Source of the DNA: Lactobacillus sp. UCMA15818
Lineage (GTDB): Bacteria > Bacillota > Bacilli > Lactobacillales > Lactobacillaceae
Length of the DNA stretch: 64,000 nucleotides
NCBI RefSeq assembly: GCF_030400225.1
Contig: NZ_VJYB01000001.1
Location: 186,001-250,000, forward strand
Reading direction: 5' to 3'
Shown piece after piece: positions 11,605 to 51,673 of this stretch (positions within the stretch are counted from its first letter, which is position 1; each line of letters opens with the position of its first letter). The translations under genes and the position numbers were made by a program. The notes beneath the pieces are model-generated. The model did not search any database and had not been told where the DNA came from. It worked only from the letters and a program-made list of their open reading frames with translations.

Positions 11605-11782
11605 CAAAAAAGCCCTGCTGATCAGAGACCAACAGGGTTCAATTGACTTTTACAATCAAATAAGCCCTATCTTCTTTATCCAGACTTTACTGTCGGTTTT
11701 GGATTTGCACCAAATCAACTGCACGAATGCAGGTCGCGGACTGTCACCGCCGGTCGGGAGTTTCACCCTGCCCCTGAAGATA
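11605..11782 (-). ncRNA. FMN riboswitch (RFN element) with terminator controlling ribU
   Basis: The aptamer spans about 11782-11664 on the minus strand. It contains the conserved blocks GGGGCAGGGTGAAA, TCCCGACCGGCGGTGACAG, TCCGCGACC, and GGTGCAAATCC. It is closed by CAGGGGC-type and AAGATAGGGC strands. It is followed by a terminator hairpin, CCCTGTTGGTC against GATCAGCAGGG (11633-11612), and TTTTTT. FMN binding is expected to favour termination and so switch off ribU. Confidence 0.96.
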
Positions 11783-11845
11783 AACCATATTATTTTTATT
11801 ACAACTAAATCTTAGCATTGTCTAAAGAATAATGCAACCATTTAT

Positions 11846-30074: not shown

Positions 30075-30845
30075 TTATTTCAGCCTATTTCCAATCTCAA
30101 GTGCCAACTCAAAAAAGTCATAAACTGATGGGGTCCGTGCACGTTCATCGCTTCTTCTATCCCAAACACCCGTTTCAATGTTCAAATGATCTGCTGTGTA
30201 AAAAAACTGATAAACATTTTTGTGCCGATAATGCGCCCAAGCAGCAACAGCCGAAGCTTCCATATCAACAACTGAGCAGCCCATCGCAATTCTTTCTTTT
30301 GCTTTTTCTGGTGTTTCACGGAAGAAAGCATCTGTCGTCCATGTTTTAGCAGTCGTATAGCTAACATTCAATTCATCAAGAATTTTTATCAATTTCGCGA
30401 CTGAGTTTGGATTCATCTGTATTTCATCACTCGCAGGTACATAGTGAAAGCTAGTTCCTTCATCCCTGATTGCACTAGTTGGAATAATTAGTTGATGTGC
30501 GCCAATATTTTTGTCCAAAACGCCACATGTTCCAAACAAAATCACATTTTCGATTCCACCAGACATCAATTCTTCCAATCTGCCAATTAAAGCTGGCGCA
30601 CCCAAGTCAGCACCTGCAATGGTAAACTTTTGCATGCCAAACTCATAACTTCCAATTACTGCATCTTGGACAATACTATGTTGAATACCTATCTTTTGAT
30701 AGTTTGAATCTTGAAATATCCGTTGATTTATATTCTTATCAAATGGCATTATTAATGTTTTGGGCAAACACTCTACTGTTTTTTCTAAATCACTTTCCCA
30801 AGGAGTAATTATTCCTTCATTAGCATCAAATTGTTCCAATAACAT
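30075..30845 (-). CDS. Nucleoside phosphorylase family protein
   Basis: This 256-residue protein belongs to the PNP/UDP phosphorylase superfamily. Phosphate-binding and base-binding blocks are visible: GVILFGTCG-type ENVILFGTCGVLD, the sugar-binding VVDMEASAVAAWA, and TADHL near the end. It is not the short MTA/SAH nucleosidase type. Uridine phosphorylase-like or purine phosphorylase activity is likely; the substrate cannot be told. I start at ATG 30845 after GGAGG. It lies 79 bases beyond the cystathionine lyase gene but has its own promoter at 30883-30911, so a role in sulfur metabolism is only a possibility. Confidence 0.8.
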   Translation of the reverse strand: MLLEQFDANEGIITPWESDLEKTVECLPKTLIMPFDKNINQRIFQDSNYQKIGIQHSIVQDAVIGSYEFGMQKFTIAGADLGAPALIGRLEELMSGGIENVILFGTCGVLDKNIGAHQLIIPTSAIRDEGTSFHYVPASDEIQMNPNSVAKLIKILDELNVSYTTAKTWTTDAFFRETPEKAKERIAMGCSVVDMEASAVAAWAHYRHKNVYQFFYTADHLNIETGVWDRRSDERARTPSVYDFFELALEIGNRLK

Positions 30846-30882
30846 GGGTAATTCCTCCACAACCAAATTAATTATTTAGTTG

Positions 30883-30924: not shown

Positions 30925-32085
<1,161 letters not shown>

Positions 32086-33003
32086 TTAATCATATATTTT
32101 TTGACTTAAATAGCGTTCACTACTATCTGGAAAAACTGTCACAATGTTACTGCCAGTGGGCAATTTTTCAGCTAACTTCAGACTGGCGGCCAATGCAGCA
32201 CCGCTCGAGCTTCCAGCAAAAATACCATAATCTTTTGCAAGTTTTTTGACTAATCCGAATGCTTCTTGATCACTAATTGTATAAATATAATCAAGATTCT
32301 CCTTTTCAAGAAAAGGTGGAATAAATTCAACTCCAATTCCCTCTGTCCGGTGACTATGTTTTGGACCACCGTTTAAAATCGATCCTTCAGGTTCGACAAT
32401 TGCTGTTTTGATATTTTTATCTTGCTCCTTAAAATATTTTGCCATTCCAACAAAAGTTCCACCACTACCAGCACCAGCTACAAAAGCACTAATCTGCAAG
32501 TTATTATCCTTCATTTCAGTATAAATTTCTGGGGCAATACTGTGATAATAAGCATCAGGATTATCCAAGTTTTCAAATTGCATGGGTACATAACTATTAG
32601 TACTGCTTGCCTCAAGATTCCTCGCTTTTTTGATTGCACCTACAATGCCATCTTCACTAGGTGTATGTACAATCTTTGCTCCAAGCGCCTGCATCAGCGT
32701 CTGCTTTTCTTGACTGAATTTCTCTGGAACAACCAATATGGTCTTCATTCCATAATACGACGCTGCCATTGCAACCCCAATACCAGTATTACCAGCAGTT
32801 GGTTCGATTACAGTCATTCCCTTTTTGAGTTTATTTTCCTTGATTGCTTGCTCAATCATATAAAAACCAAGTCGATCTTTGATGCTTCCTCCTGGATTAC
32901 TTGACTCGATTTTTGCAAAAATATGGGAGCCATTGGCAACGTCAACACTAAGTTCCAGCAGCGGTGTATTTCCAACTAATTCTTCAACAGTATGATAGAT
33001 CAT
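32086..33003 (-). CDS. cysK: Cysteine synthase / O-acetylserine-dependent cystathionine beta-synthase (CysK/MccA family)
   Basis: This is a 305-residue PLP enzyme. The PLP lysine is K42 in [27 protein letters not shown] and [17 protein letters not shown] bind substrate and phosphate. NPGGS in place of the EPSGS/NPAGS of true cysteine synthases, and pairing with a cystathionine lyase gene, point to the MccA (YrhA) type that condenses homocysteine with O-acetylserine. CysK activity cannot be excluded. ATG 33003 follows AAGGAGG. Between it and the nearest good promoter (33417-33445) lie a Cys-rich leader ORF, a terminator and a 170-bp repeat. Confidence 0.88.
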
Positions 33004-33035
33004 CGTAAGTCCTCCTTATTTTTAGAAAAGAAAAA

Positions 33036-33205
33036 GGGGCTGGGTCAAAAGTTAACTTTTGATTCAGTTTCTCTATTTATTACGTATAAACATGTTTCAT
33101 AAGTCAAAATTCTCCGTCTAACTTCGAATTACTCATAGTAAAGTGCTTGCTATGTTCGTAATTTCGAGCTAGTACTCAAATTTTCCCGACTTATGGCACA
33201 CTCCC
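33036..33205. repeat. 170-bp intergenic repeat, copy A
   Basis: Bases 33036-33205 are about 97 percent identical to the reverse complement of 36491-36660 by eye (about five substitutions and one single-base indel). The element has a palindromic end (CAAAAGTTAACTTTTG near 33046-33061). It also has a long foldback: CATAAGTC 33098-33105 with GACTTATG 33188-33195, and inside it CGAATTAC 33125-33132 with GTAATTTCG 33158-33166. No coding frame fits. It starts exactly where the attenuator T-tract ends and finishes 32 bases before cysK. Confidence 0.92.
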
Positions 33206-33241
33206 AAAAGAAAAAGGCACGAATCTATTAAGATTCGCGCC
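33206..33241 (-). terminator. Terminator (putative attenuator) between the Cys-rich leader ORF and cysK
   Basis: On the minus strand GGCGCGAATCT (33241-33231) pairs with AGATTCGTGCC (33226-33216) around TAAT, 11 bp with one G-T pair. It is followed by TTTTTCTTTT. It lies 39 bases after the stop of the leader ORF. The segment GGAATCT in the last codons of that ORF could pair with the 3' arm AGATTC and act as an antiterminator strand; this is inference. Confidence 0.85.
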
Positions 33242-33279
33242 CTAGCCTGGAAAGCTCTTCAAATGGAATTTTTCTTAAC

Positions 33280-33387
33280 TCAACCTACAAAAAGATTCCA
33301 ACTCAAAGCAGCCATTTCATCCACACTAACACGCGGAATGAGACAGCAACATGCATTATTCGTCTTTTTAAAGTTAAATACACCCAT
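33280..33387 (-). CDS. Small ORF with Cys-Cys-Cys, probable cysteine leader peptide
   Basis: This is a 35-residue open frame beginning MGVFNFKKTNNACCCLIPRV and ending SWNLFVG. Cysteines 13-15 are encoded TGT TGC TGT. ATG 33387 follows AGGAGAAGGGG at 8 bases, one of the better binding sites in the window. A promoter at 33417-33445 would start transcription only about 15-20 bases before that site, and a terminator follows 39 bases after the stop. The genes beyond make cysteine. This is the layout of an amino-acid attenuator in which ribosomes stall at Cys codons when Cys-tRNA is scarce. A small Cys-rich metal-binding peptide is the alternative. I know no named family for it. Confidence 0.65.
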   Translation of the reverse strand: MGVFNFKKTNNACCCLIPRVSVDEMAALSWNLFVG

Positions 33388-33416
33388 TTGTTAAACCCCT
33401 TCTCCTGATAAGTTGA

Positions 33417-33445
33417 ATATTAAACCATCTATTTCCAAAAAGCAA
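33417..33445 (-). promoter_or_regulatory. Probable promoter of the leader ORF / cysteine operon
   Basis: On the minus strand TTGCTT (33445-33440) and TAATAT (33422-33417) are spaced by 17 bases, just beyond the rpoD stop. The predicted start is only some 30 bases before the leader ORF ATG, giving the short untranslated leader typical of attenuated operons. Confidence 0.5.
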
Positions 33446-33452
33446 GTAAATT

Positions 33453-34577
33453 TTATTCTAAAAAGTCTTTTAATTGCTTTGAACGTGAGGGATGTCGTAA
33501 TTTGCGCAATGCCTTTGCCTCAATCTGACGAATACGTTCGCGCGTAACACCAAAGACCTTACCTACTTCCTCAAGTGTACGTGTCCGACCATCATCTAAA
33601 CCAAAACGAAGACGCAAGACATTCTCCTCACGATCAGTCAATGTATCAAGCACACTCTCAAGCTGCTCCTTCAATAACTCATATGCAGCATGATCAGCAG
33701 GGCTGGTAGCGTCACGATCTTCAATAAAGTCGCCTAAGTGTGAATCATCCTCCTCACCAATTGGAGTCTCCAAAGATACTGGTTCTTGCGCAATTTTTAA
33801 GATTTCACGAACTTTGTCTGTCGGCATATCCATTTCAGCACCAATTTCTTCTGGCACTGGTTCACGCCCAAGGTCTTGCAGCATTTGTCTTTGAATTCTG
33901 ATTAATTTATTGATTGTTTCAACCATATGGACAGGAATACGAATTGTACGAGCCTGATCTGCAATTGCACGTGTGATTGCTTGCCTAATCCACCATGTCG
34001 CATAGGTAGAAAACTTGAATCCCTTGCGGTAATCAAATTTTTCAACGGCTTTCATTAGTCCCATATTGCCTTCTTGAATAAGGTCAAGGAAAGACATTCC
34101 ACGACCAACATAACGCTTGGCAATTGAAACAACTAGGCGTAAATTAGCCTCGGCTAACCGCTGCTTTGATTCTTCATTGCCCTCCTCAATCTTCAATGCT
34201 AAGGCAACCTCTTCATCAGCTGTCAACAAGTTCACGCGTCCAATTTCCTTAAGATACATCCTGACTGGGTCGTTAATCTTGACCCCCGCAGGTGCCGACA
34301 CATTCTTATCTTTTGCTGCCTTTTCAGCAACACCTGAAGCAGCCTTTAAACTATGTTCACTTGGTTCACCTTTTTCATCAACAACTGAAATACCAGAGTC
34401 TTCAAGCTTCTGAATCAATTCATCCATCTGACCAGAATTTAAGCTAAAAGGAGTAACCAGTTTTTCACTCAAATCATCATAGTTAATTTCTTTTGATGCT
34501 TTATATTCTTTAATTAACTCATTCAAGGCTTTAATATATGCTGCACTTTCAGTTCCATTATTCATATTCTCTGCCAT
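33453..34577 (-). CDS. rpoD: RNA polymerase primary sigma factor RpoD (SigA)
   Basis: This is the housekeeping sigma factor, 374 residues. Region 1.1 is acidic ([18 protein letters not shown]), and region 1.2 is [16 protein letters not shown]. Region 2 ([37 protein letters not shown]) reads the -10. Region 3 follows, and region 4.2 ([20 protein letters not shown]) reads the -35. All are intact. It starts 11 bases after dnaG, the classic macromolecular-synthesis pair; rpsU is elsewhere (44445). No terminator hairpin is evident before the next promoter at 33417-33445. Confidence 0.98.
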
Positions 34578-36490: not shown

Positions 36491-36660
36491 GGGAGTGTGC
36501 CATAAGTCGGGAAACTTGAGTACTAACTCGAAATTACGAACATAGCAAGCACTTTACTATGAGTAATTCGAAGTTAGACGGAGAATTTTGACTTATGAAA
36601 CACGTTTATACGGAATAAATAGAGAAACTGAATCAAAAGTTAAATTTTGACCCAGCCCCC
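36491..36660. repeat. 170-bp intergenic repeat, copy B (inverted relative to copy A)
   Basis: This is nearly identical to the reverse complement of 33036-33205, so the two copies bracket rpoD-dnaG as inverted repeats about 3.3 kb apart. It begins GGGAGTGTGCCATAAGTCGGG and ends TTTTGACCCAGCCCCC, followed by TATTTTTT, so on the plus strand the end resembles a terminator. The remaining bases of the 345-base gap between dnaG and glyS (36661-36781) are A/T-rich with no recognised element. Confidence 0.92.
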
Positions 36661-36781
36661 TATTTTTTCAATAAAACACTCTAAAAACAATCATTTCTAA
36701 TTATACAATAATACGAATAAAAATCAAAGAATAAAGAAAATGCAACTAAAAGTCTAAGACACAGCCGTGAATAGACCATCC

Positions 36782-39828: not shown

Positions 39829-40000
39829 AAAAAAGCCTATATAACCACAATCAGCGGTTACATAGGGACGATTTCTATTAATCGCGGTTCCACCCTACTT
39901 CTAGCATACACTAGCAGCTTCATTCATGTTATGAAGATTCCAAAAATGCCAATGTCAAATCTCATTTGTCCGCTCACACTAACCCGAACTCGCTGCTAAA
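39829..40000 (-). ncRNA. Glycine T-box riboswitch controlling glyQS
   Basis: The T-box sequence AGGGTGGAACCGCG lies at 39896-39883 on the minus strand. A terminator, CCTATGTAACC against GGTTATATAGG with TTTTTT, follows at 39867-39829. Stem I closes with AGCAGC (39998-39993) and GCTGCT (39918-39913). The likely specifier is GGC at 39950-39948, followed by the usual purine, matching tRNA-Gly. Uncharged tRNA-Gly would stabilise the antiterminator. Confidence 0.95.
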
Positions 40001-40052
40001 CAAAATATAGACACCCTTTTTCATCATTACCTTCACATTTATCTACCAAGTA

Positions 40053-51457: not shown

Positions 51458-51665
51458 AAAAAAAACCTTGCCGAAAAAATTCGACAAGGGTGCAAAACAG
51501 CACGGTACCACCTTAATTAGTTACTCATTTGGATAACGTTCCACAACGGTATGCATTGCACATACACCTCAAAAGTGTCTTTCACTGCTTATCTTAGTGG
51601 GGCTTTCACCAATTGCTCCACTCTCTGCTTAAGAATTCTCAGCTACTCCTCTTCCATCCGGCTCT
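51458..51665 (-). ncRNA. T-box riboswitch controlling hisS-aspS
   Basis: The T-box sequence AAGGTGGTACCGTG is at 51514-51501 on the minus strand. A terminator, CCTTGTCGAA against TTCGGCAAGG with a T-tract, follows at 51489-51458. Upstream are stem I features AGAGGAGTAG, AGAGAGTGG and GGTGAAAGCC. The specifier region reads GAAAGACACT (GACAC at 51579-51575): GAC (Asp) is followed by the usual A, while the overlapping CAC (His) is followed by T. Asp is therefore favoured, but both tRNAs are relevant to this operon. Confidence 0.93.
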
Positions 51666-51673
51666 AATATACA

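Follow-up and report, generated by a model that had tools for sequence, protein, structure and literature searches.

A candidate cysteine-codon leader peptide and transcription attenuator upstream of cysK in Liquorilactobacillus and other Lactobacillaceae

Described cysteine leaders and the layout of the locus

Polycysteine leaderless sORFs of mycobacteria were reportedly described by Canestrari et al. in 2020. Cys-run leaders are on record in mycobacteria and in other actinobacteria (PMC1262725, PMC9094748, PMC13236596). In the excerpted text of a computational forerunner of 2005, the Cys codons lay near the stop and conserved terminator hairpins were not seen (PMC1262725). As presented in the excerpts of the later papers, the mycobacterial sORFs resemble the element described here in that a cysteine-responsive Cys-run leader stands upstream of cysteine genes, but they are leaderless and are described as translation attenuators (PMC9094748, PMC13236596). 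In the Rhodobacterales, uORFC-8-2 precedes cysS; it is a short ORF whose Cys codons stand in tandem, in most cases at positions 14–15, ahead of a terminator stem and a U run, and ribosome-mediated transcription attenuation was proposed for it (excerpt of PMC8632094). Amino-acid leader peptides also occur in Gram-positive bacteria, where T-boxes are usual, and the excerpted sources describe His leader attenuators in Firmicutes (PMC2965389, PMC9413887) and a Leu-rich ilv attenuator in S. aureus (PMC5794164); these concern other amino acids, genes and lineages. With a Cys attenuator in Rhodobacterales, Cys-run leaders in actinobacteria and His and Leu leaders in Firmicutes, this kind of element is therefore already known. 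Among the matches listed by our literature search, which covered few subscription papers, none described a Cys leader in lactobacilli.

In L. paracasei FAM18149, the genes cysK2, ctl1 and cysE2 showed log2 values of −2.9 to −3.2 in Met-deficient versus Cys-deficient medium, corresponding to an approximately 7–9-fold higher expression in the Cys-deficient medium (PMC6004538, seen in excerpt). The 5'UTR had a high read coverage and contained a terminator-like palindrome, AAGGGCGCGAAA-N16-TTTCGCGCCCTT; the authors considered premature termination, possibly with an antisense RNA, and the mechanism was "yet to be discovered" (PMC6004538). This 5'UTR precedes a gene pair similar to ours and possesses the same kind of terminator palindrome. 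The excerpt of the study describes a terminator and an antisense RNA and names no leader ORF, whereas in other Lacticaseibacillus sequences, carried by plasmids, a CCC leader was located just before that kind of palindrome, and it is from these that the likeness is drawn. The expression data fit Cys attenuation and come from L. paracasei, another species.

The locus lies in a stretch of 64,000 nucleotides (the window), and its elements follow one another on the minus strand in the order rpoD, promoter, SD, Cys-codon ORF, intrinsic terminator and cysK (Table 1). The name of the first gene was given from its sequence, and we take it to be rpoD. All the parts announced in the original prediction, namely a −35/−10 pair after rpoD, a strong SD and a 35-codon ORF with Cys codons at positions 13–15, were present. 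The promoter is putative, as the TTGCTT/TAATAT pair was read by eye and was absent from the output of the hexamer scan. At the same place the relatives had TTGCTT with TATTAT or TACTAT (G256, G066, G190) or TTGATT with TAACAT (G096). The transcript is expected to start near position 33410, approximately 23 nt before the ATG. A leaderless start, without SD and at the 5' end of the transcript, does not describe this ORF, which is preceded by the SD AGGAGAAGGGG. SD-like purine-rich stretches also preceded the leader starts of the relatives where the script had picked no inner ATG; an inner ATG was picked as start in several leaders (e.g., G096, G030, G169, G208, G146), which left the Cys positions unaffected. 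The RNA from 33410 to 33206 folded at −65.7 kcal/mol, compared to −46.3 ± 4.0 kcal/mol for shuffled sequences (z −4.8; 0/200 as stable). At E 0.001, neither Pfam nor NCBIfam had a family that matched the leader peptide.

The announced GC-rich hairpin of 11 bp with a T-tract was found with its T-rich tail, the stem being slightly longer: 13 pairs, six of them G-C, followed by TTTCTTTT, or 12 pairs by a second measure. The downstream genes agreed with the amino acid of the codon run, with a cysK-like and a cystathionine synthase/lyase-like gene at this locus and an HTS-family gene in four genomes. The PNP/UDP phosphorylase-superfamily gene is possibly in the same operon as cysK. It was placed by profile at the superfamily level, so that the "methionine-to-cysteine operon" of the original prediction rests on the cysK and cystathionine enzyme pair.

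Compared to uORFC-8-2 by description, which belongs to Alphaproteobacteria, serves cysS only and has two Cys codons in the excerpted account (PMC8632094), the present leader serves cysK and HTS genes of Lactobacillaceae, mostly with three consecutive Cys codons. It differs from the mycobacterial sORFs in its SD-led ORF and its intrinsic terminator.

Table 1. Elements of the locus and neighbouring genes (numbering of the window)
Feature	Position	Strand	Remarks
rpoD (presumed)	33453..34577	-	conserved upstream neighbour
Promoter (putative)	-35 TTGCTT 33445-33440; 17 nt; -10 TAATAT 33422-33417	-	by eye
Shine-Dalgarno AGGAGAAGGGG	33396..33406	-	ends ~8 nt before leader ATG
Leader ORF, 35 codons, MGVFNFKKTNNACCCLIPRVSVDEMAALSWNLFVG	33387-33280	-	ORF call
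Cys codons 13-15, TGT TGC TGT	33351-33343	-	
Hairpin 1:2, directly after Cys codons	33317..33341	-	covarying pairs across 28 leaders
Antiterminator, 5' strand (predicted)	33285..33335	-	starts with CGCGU in codons 18-19
Antiterminator, 3' strand (predicted)	33236..33278	-	GCGCG 33240-33236 belongs to terminator 5' arm
Predicted intrinsic terminator	stem 33243-33214; T-rich tract 33213-33206	-	
MITE-like repeat, ~187 bp	33019..33205	-	between terminator and cysK; outside conserved switch
cysK-like PLP enzyme (PALP)	32086..33003	-	first regulated gene (predicted); profile match, below NCBIfam cysK cut-offs
Cystathionine gamma-synthase/lyase-like	30925..32070	-	profile match, below NCBIfam cut-offs
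PNP/UDP phosphorylase superfamily, nucleosidase-like	30075..30866	-	profile match

Distribution of the leader within and outside the genus

The genus was taken to be Liquorilactobacillus from its named relatives, Liquorilactobacillus mali (two loci) and L. cacaonum, which encode close relatives of cysK (84–93%), and 14 genomes were compared, including that of the window. The succession rpoD, Cys leader, terminator and cysK was observed in 14/14 genomes, with a Cys run of the CCC type in 12 and CC-S-C in two. The window locus is thus confirmed as real and as more than a chance arrangement, the ORF, the Cys run, the terminator and their place being kept in every genome of the genus. A profile search for the leader recovered it in 12 of the 14, and the two missed (G225 and G285) were recognised by direct reading of the sequence. 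A TTG start with a better SD spacing is likely for the leaders of G225 and G271. At locus L112 (G241) the cysK match begins at residue 68 (open frame of 238 aa), and in this draft genome the frame is apparently broken.

Four of the 14 genomes (G208, G122, G146, G241) have, upstream of an HTS-family (metA-like) gene, a further leader (CCCRISC) that is followed by a terminator of its own. No CCC leader was visible within 400 nt upstream of the HTS genes of seven genomes (including G000, that of the window), and three carried a different Cys-rich element at HTS, called type 2 below. The genus-wide search for the CCC pattern led to 30 loci that were read by eye, of which those at cysK and HTS were leaders and the others were not; four matching places yielded no locus.

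The conserved core of the leader consisted of the Cys run, the flanking hairpin and the antiterminator. Positions N11, C13, C15, I17 and R19 were invariant among nine aligned leaders of the genus. The mean column identity of the peptide was 34% across 18 leaders, and the residues after the Cys run differed by lineage (LIPR, RIPR, RISR, RSSR, RNSR, RTTR, RISC). The Cys codons were retained, T and C varying synonymously within them (split 14:14 in the second codon). As the original prediction had anticipated, the Cys codons and the terminator stayed constant and the remainder of the leader drifted, both within the genus and in three further genera (ten genomes).

In other genera the leader has a patchy distribution. 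The palindrome pattern GGCGCGAA-N9-20-TTCGYGCC had a match in 21 and the CCC-R-x-x-R pattern in 36 of 397 genomes of the family. From both patterns 22 non-genus loci were read: nine were leaders (G633, G693, G625, G657, G667, G701, G704, G688, G186), and twelve were not, having no in-frame start codon or another context. The leader of G264 was missed by the script pattern and recognised by hand; it was left out of the statistics on 28 leaders. Four non-genus places from the CCC-R-x-x-R search gave no locus, and seven from the palindrome search (L170–L173, L188–L190) were not leaders. Among the genomes searched, CCC leaders with a terminator upstream of cysK were present in 6/24 of g14, 3/25 of g23 and 1/21 of g38 (genus totals counted by hand); MNQSMFNAINCCCRTTRFWRCSAC, upstream of cysK, is an example from outside the genus.

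Plasmids pLC1 (L. rhamnosus Lc 705) and pBD-II (L. paracasei) also carry the Cys leader, at a place where the PLSDB gene table, itself incomplete, has no annotated feature. Thirty-two plasmid records, all from Lacticaseibacillus, matched the g14 stretch at 90–99%, and in the best 20 of the 32 matches the alignment spanned the Cys codons through the terminator. A tblastn search of the plasmids with the peptide gave a single chance-level match (E 6). Among 395 genomes of the order, the genus-leader profile matched its own genome and nine others (E 0.001–0.009), the nine loci being without a leader at a cysteine gene by eye; a broader profile matched 45 further genomes (E 0.0017–0.05), and none of the 19 loci read was recognised as a leader before a cysteine gene.

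Alternative folds and the position of the ribosome

Besides the ORF, the Cys run and the terminator, two alternative pairings, conserved and co-varying, could be read from the sequence. The hairpin 1:2 has arms that change by lineage: CGUAUU/AAUACG, CGCAU/AUGCG-type, and CGAACA/UGUUCG in Lacticaseibacillus and others. Position 3 of the arm was U-A, C-G or A-U, position 5 was U-A or C-G, and position 6 was U-A, U-G or A-U. Several leaders had an unpaired position, either position 1 (the group of the window) or position 5 (G225, G285). When arms were exchanged between lineages, 22 of 200,000 permutations were as good as the true assignment (28 leaders), and 30 of 720 in another grouping.

The predicted antiterminator joins the codons after the Cys run to the stretch before the terminator and to the terminator 5' arm. 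In the nascent fold of the window, at −37.7 kcal/mol, CGCGU 33335–33331 pairs with GCGCG 33240–33236, followed by UUAGU/GCUAG, UGGA/UCCA and so on. The stalled ribosome was modelled with the first Cys codon in its A site and, as an assumed footprint, with its front edge 12 nt beyond the first nucleotide of the Cys run. In all 28 leaders modelled in this way, the nascent RNA up to the loop of the terminator had as its best fold one in which the codons downstream of Cys paired with the 5' arm of the terminator. The stability of this fold was compared to shuffled sequences for 18 of the 28, with z values from −1.7 to −5.4 and 0/200 shuffles as good in 15 of the 18; G030 was weakly better than its shuffles (13/200 as good).

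The two strands of the antiterminator also appeared to evolve together. Matched strands averaged −28.4 kcal/mol compared to −20.2 kcal/mol for strands swapped between lineages, and 0 of 200,000 permutations were as good (28 leaders in 11 groups); with 18 leaders in six groups, one of 720 was as good, and this one was the true assignment. Taken separately, the terminator 5' arm alone gave 610/200,000 and the stretch before the terminator 54/200,000. The groups were set by the analyst's judgement and are related to each other, so these permutation figures are to be read as support and not as exact probabilities. For the two CC-S-C leaders, a shift of one codon was applied in the 28-leader permutations and none in the 18-leader one. 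In the HTS leaders, one C-G pair of the antiterminator is U-A and the encoded Arg is replaced by Cys, which indicates that the RNA pair was kept, not the residue. The sequences thus contain a candidate antiterminator that would exclude the terminator by using its 5' arm and that co-evolves.

The antiterminator first proposed was a different one, GGAATCT of the last codons with AGATTC of the terminator 3' arm, and it was not borne out. This pairing averaged −8.6 kcal/mol over the 28 leaders and had a probability of 0.0 in the equilibrium fold of the window leader. It displayed no co-evolution (matched −8.56 versus swapped −8.32 kcal/mol; 91,981/200,000 permutations as good). In 5/28 leaders, four of them the closest relatives, pairings of this type were stronger than the one formed by the post-Cys codons and the terminator 5' arm taken by itself. 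In the long antiterminator, the GGAAU of the last codons is used instead with AUUCC at 33269–33265.

In full-length folds at equilibrium, the terminator was favoured whatever the ribosome state in each of the 18 leaders tested (mostly P ≥ 0.9; lowest 0.63), with values of 0.77–0.89 in G030. A switch must therefore be kinetic, the choice being made during RNA synthesis. As no switch was visible in the folds of the whole leader, the nascent RNA was folded as it stands before the terminator 3' arm exists. Placing the ribosome between one and three codons beyond the Cys run reduced the pairing of the 5' arm by at least half in 21/28 leaders; the seven others were G030, G146 HTS, G625, G657, G667, G701 and pLC1. 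The leader without ribosome paired its 5' arm less than the stalled leader in only 13/28. In the window, this pairing was 0.56 without ribosome and 0.55 with the ribosome stalled, then 0.11, 0.16 and 0.74 with the ribosome one, two and three codons past the run, the return to 0.74 being due to other upstream partners. The folding models speak for the antiterminator and for its beginning at the Cys run; the switch is not proven by folding alone.

Proposed mechanism, rival explanations and a second element

Upstream of cysK, charged tRNA-Cys is very probably sensed by ribosome-mediated transcription attenuation. The original prediction, in which a Cys-codon leader peptide and an attenuator of transcription precede cysteine genes, is supported by the conservation and by the co-evolving folds; we infer that the leader is translated, that the ribosome stalls on it, that stalling depends on tRNA-Cys, and in which order the folds form. 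In this model, when Cys-tRNA is scarce, the ribosome would stall at codons 13–15 with its front edge just before UUCCGCG, and would partly mask the 5' arm of the hairpin 1:2, which would be blocked. The next codons would then be free to pair, over approximately 100 nt, with the pre-terminator region and the terminator 5' arm, and transcription would continue into cysK and the cystathionine gene. When cysteine is supplied, the ribosome of the leader would pass the Cys codons and cover the first strand of the antiterminator. Once it has left the leader, the hairpin 1:2 could reform. The terminator would then fold, and transcription would end before cysK.

Three other explanations of the same elements were considered. 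The GC-rich palindrome might be bound by a repressor or activator protein at the DNA level, the short ORF being incidental. A palindrome, AAAGGGCGCGAA-N11-18-TTCGCGCCTTTT, is indeed reported upstream of cystathionine genes in lactobacilli, and such a reading would agree with what the same excerpt cites from Liu et al. 2012 as a "potential regulatory motif" (PMC6004538). This explanation is very unlikely, in view of the T-rich tail that follows the palindrome in 28/28 leaders (the scripts required one, and that of G241 was set by hand), of the mismatch that breaks its symmetry in the HTS leaders, and of the Cys codons retained through 14:14 synonymous T/C variation at the second one. The 5' arm of the palindrome co-evolves with the post-Cys codons, which binding of a protein would not need. 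It is still less probable that a peptide with the conserved motif CC(C/S)C-R-x-x-R stalls in the exit tunnel upon binding of a thiol metabolite. The post-Cys residues are conserved among the nine leaders of the genus, as an arrest peptide would have them, but between lineages they vary together with the RNA pairs formed by their codons, and the peptide as a whole reaches the 34% mean column identity given above for 18 leaders.

A degenerate or unrecognised Cys T-box, to which uncharged tRNA would bind directly beside an incidental ORF, would be natural in a genome with 33 T-box matches at E ≤ 0.001, 12 of them over the cut-off, and Cys T-boxes in front of cysK are on record for Clostridium perfringens (excerpt of PMC6004538). 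We consider this most improbable. The Rfam model RF00230 had no match at the leader, at the gathering score or at E up to 10, and what is conserved is the Cys run, its flanking hairpin and the antiterminator. At the relaxed Rfam threshold, the leader gave only sub-threshold matches, the best being NmsRb with 24.1 bits for a gathering score of 52. According to the excerpt of PMC6004538, the 5'UTR of L. paracasei cysK2-ctl1-cysE2 likewise contains no T-box.

The attenuator would offer a mechanism for the cysteine-dependent regulation in lactobacilli that the 2018 study left "yet to be discovered", and the proposed regulatory palindrome would be reinterpreted as the terminator of the attenuator. 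If true, leader-peptide attenuation for cysteine would exist in a family known for its T-boxes, on the pathway of methionine-to-cysteine conversion, which is relevant to cheese flavour.

The type-2 element was located upstream of HTS-cysK2 at L161, L162 and L163 (G285, G271 and G225, respectively). Its first small ORF ends with CCC-stop, and GAUUUCUAUACU follows directly. A pairing is possible between this segment and AGUAUGGAGGUC-U6/7, which is the SD of a further small, Cys-rich ORF; the latter ends with GGVRACC-stop in two of the loci and has an internal CCC in the third. The element resembles an attenuator of translation for Cys or else a terminator of a second type. There is perhaps an even chance that poly-Cys leaders of at least two mechanical types replace the Cys T-box in Lactobacillaceae: type 1 would act by terminating transcription ahead of cysK and of certain HTS genes, type 2 would hide the SD of the second ORF or terminate, and with type 2 a shortage of cysteine would be read twice in succession ahead of the enzyme gene. 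The second HTS paralogue of the genus (L164–L167, L169) was preceded, by eye, by a T-box-like leader with GGGTGGTAACACG, GGGTGGTAACGCG or GGGTGGTACCGCG, in place of a Cys leader.

Between the terminator and cysK, before the SD of the latter, the window carries a MITE-like repeat whose insertion was seen by eye in this genome only among the 14 of the genus. It is flanked on both sides by CTTTTTCTTTT, resembling a target-site duplication. The genome contains at least 47 matches to it, approximately 40 of them near full length; this count is a lower bound, as 40 of 261 candidates were scored. In this species the repeat might decouple the switch from cysK. Elsewhere in the window, Rfam models matched an FMN riboswitch at 11665–11785 (minus strand, 103.8 bits) and T-boxes at 39861–40036 and 51483–51667 (minus strand, 60 and 77 bits, below the cut-off of 93), the former lying upstream of a gene that resembles glyQ by eye. 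A second copy of the repeat was located at 36491–36675 on the plus strand.
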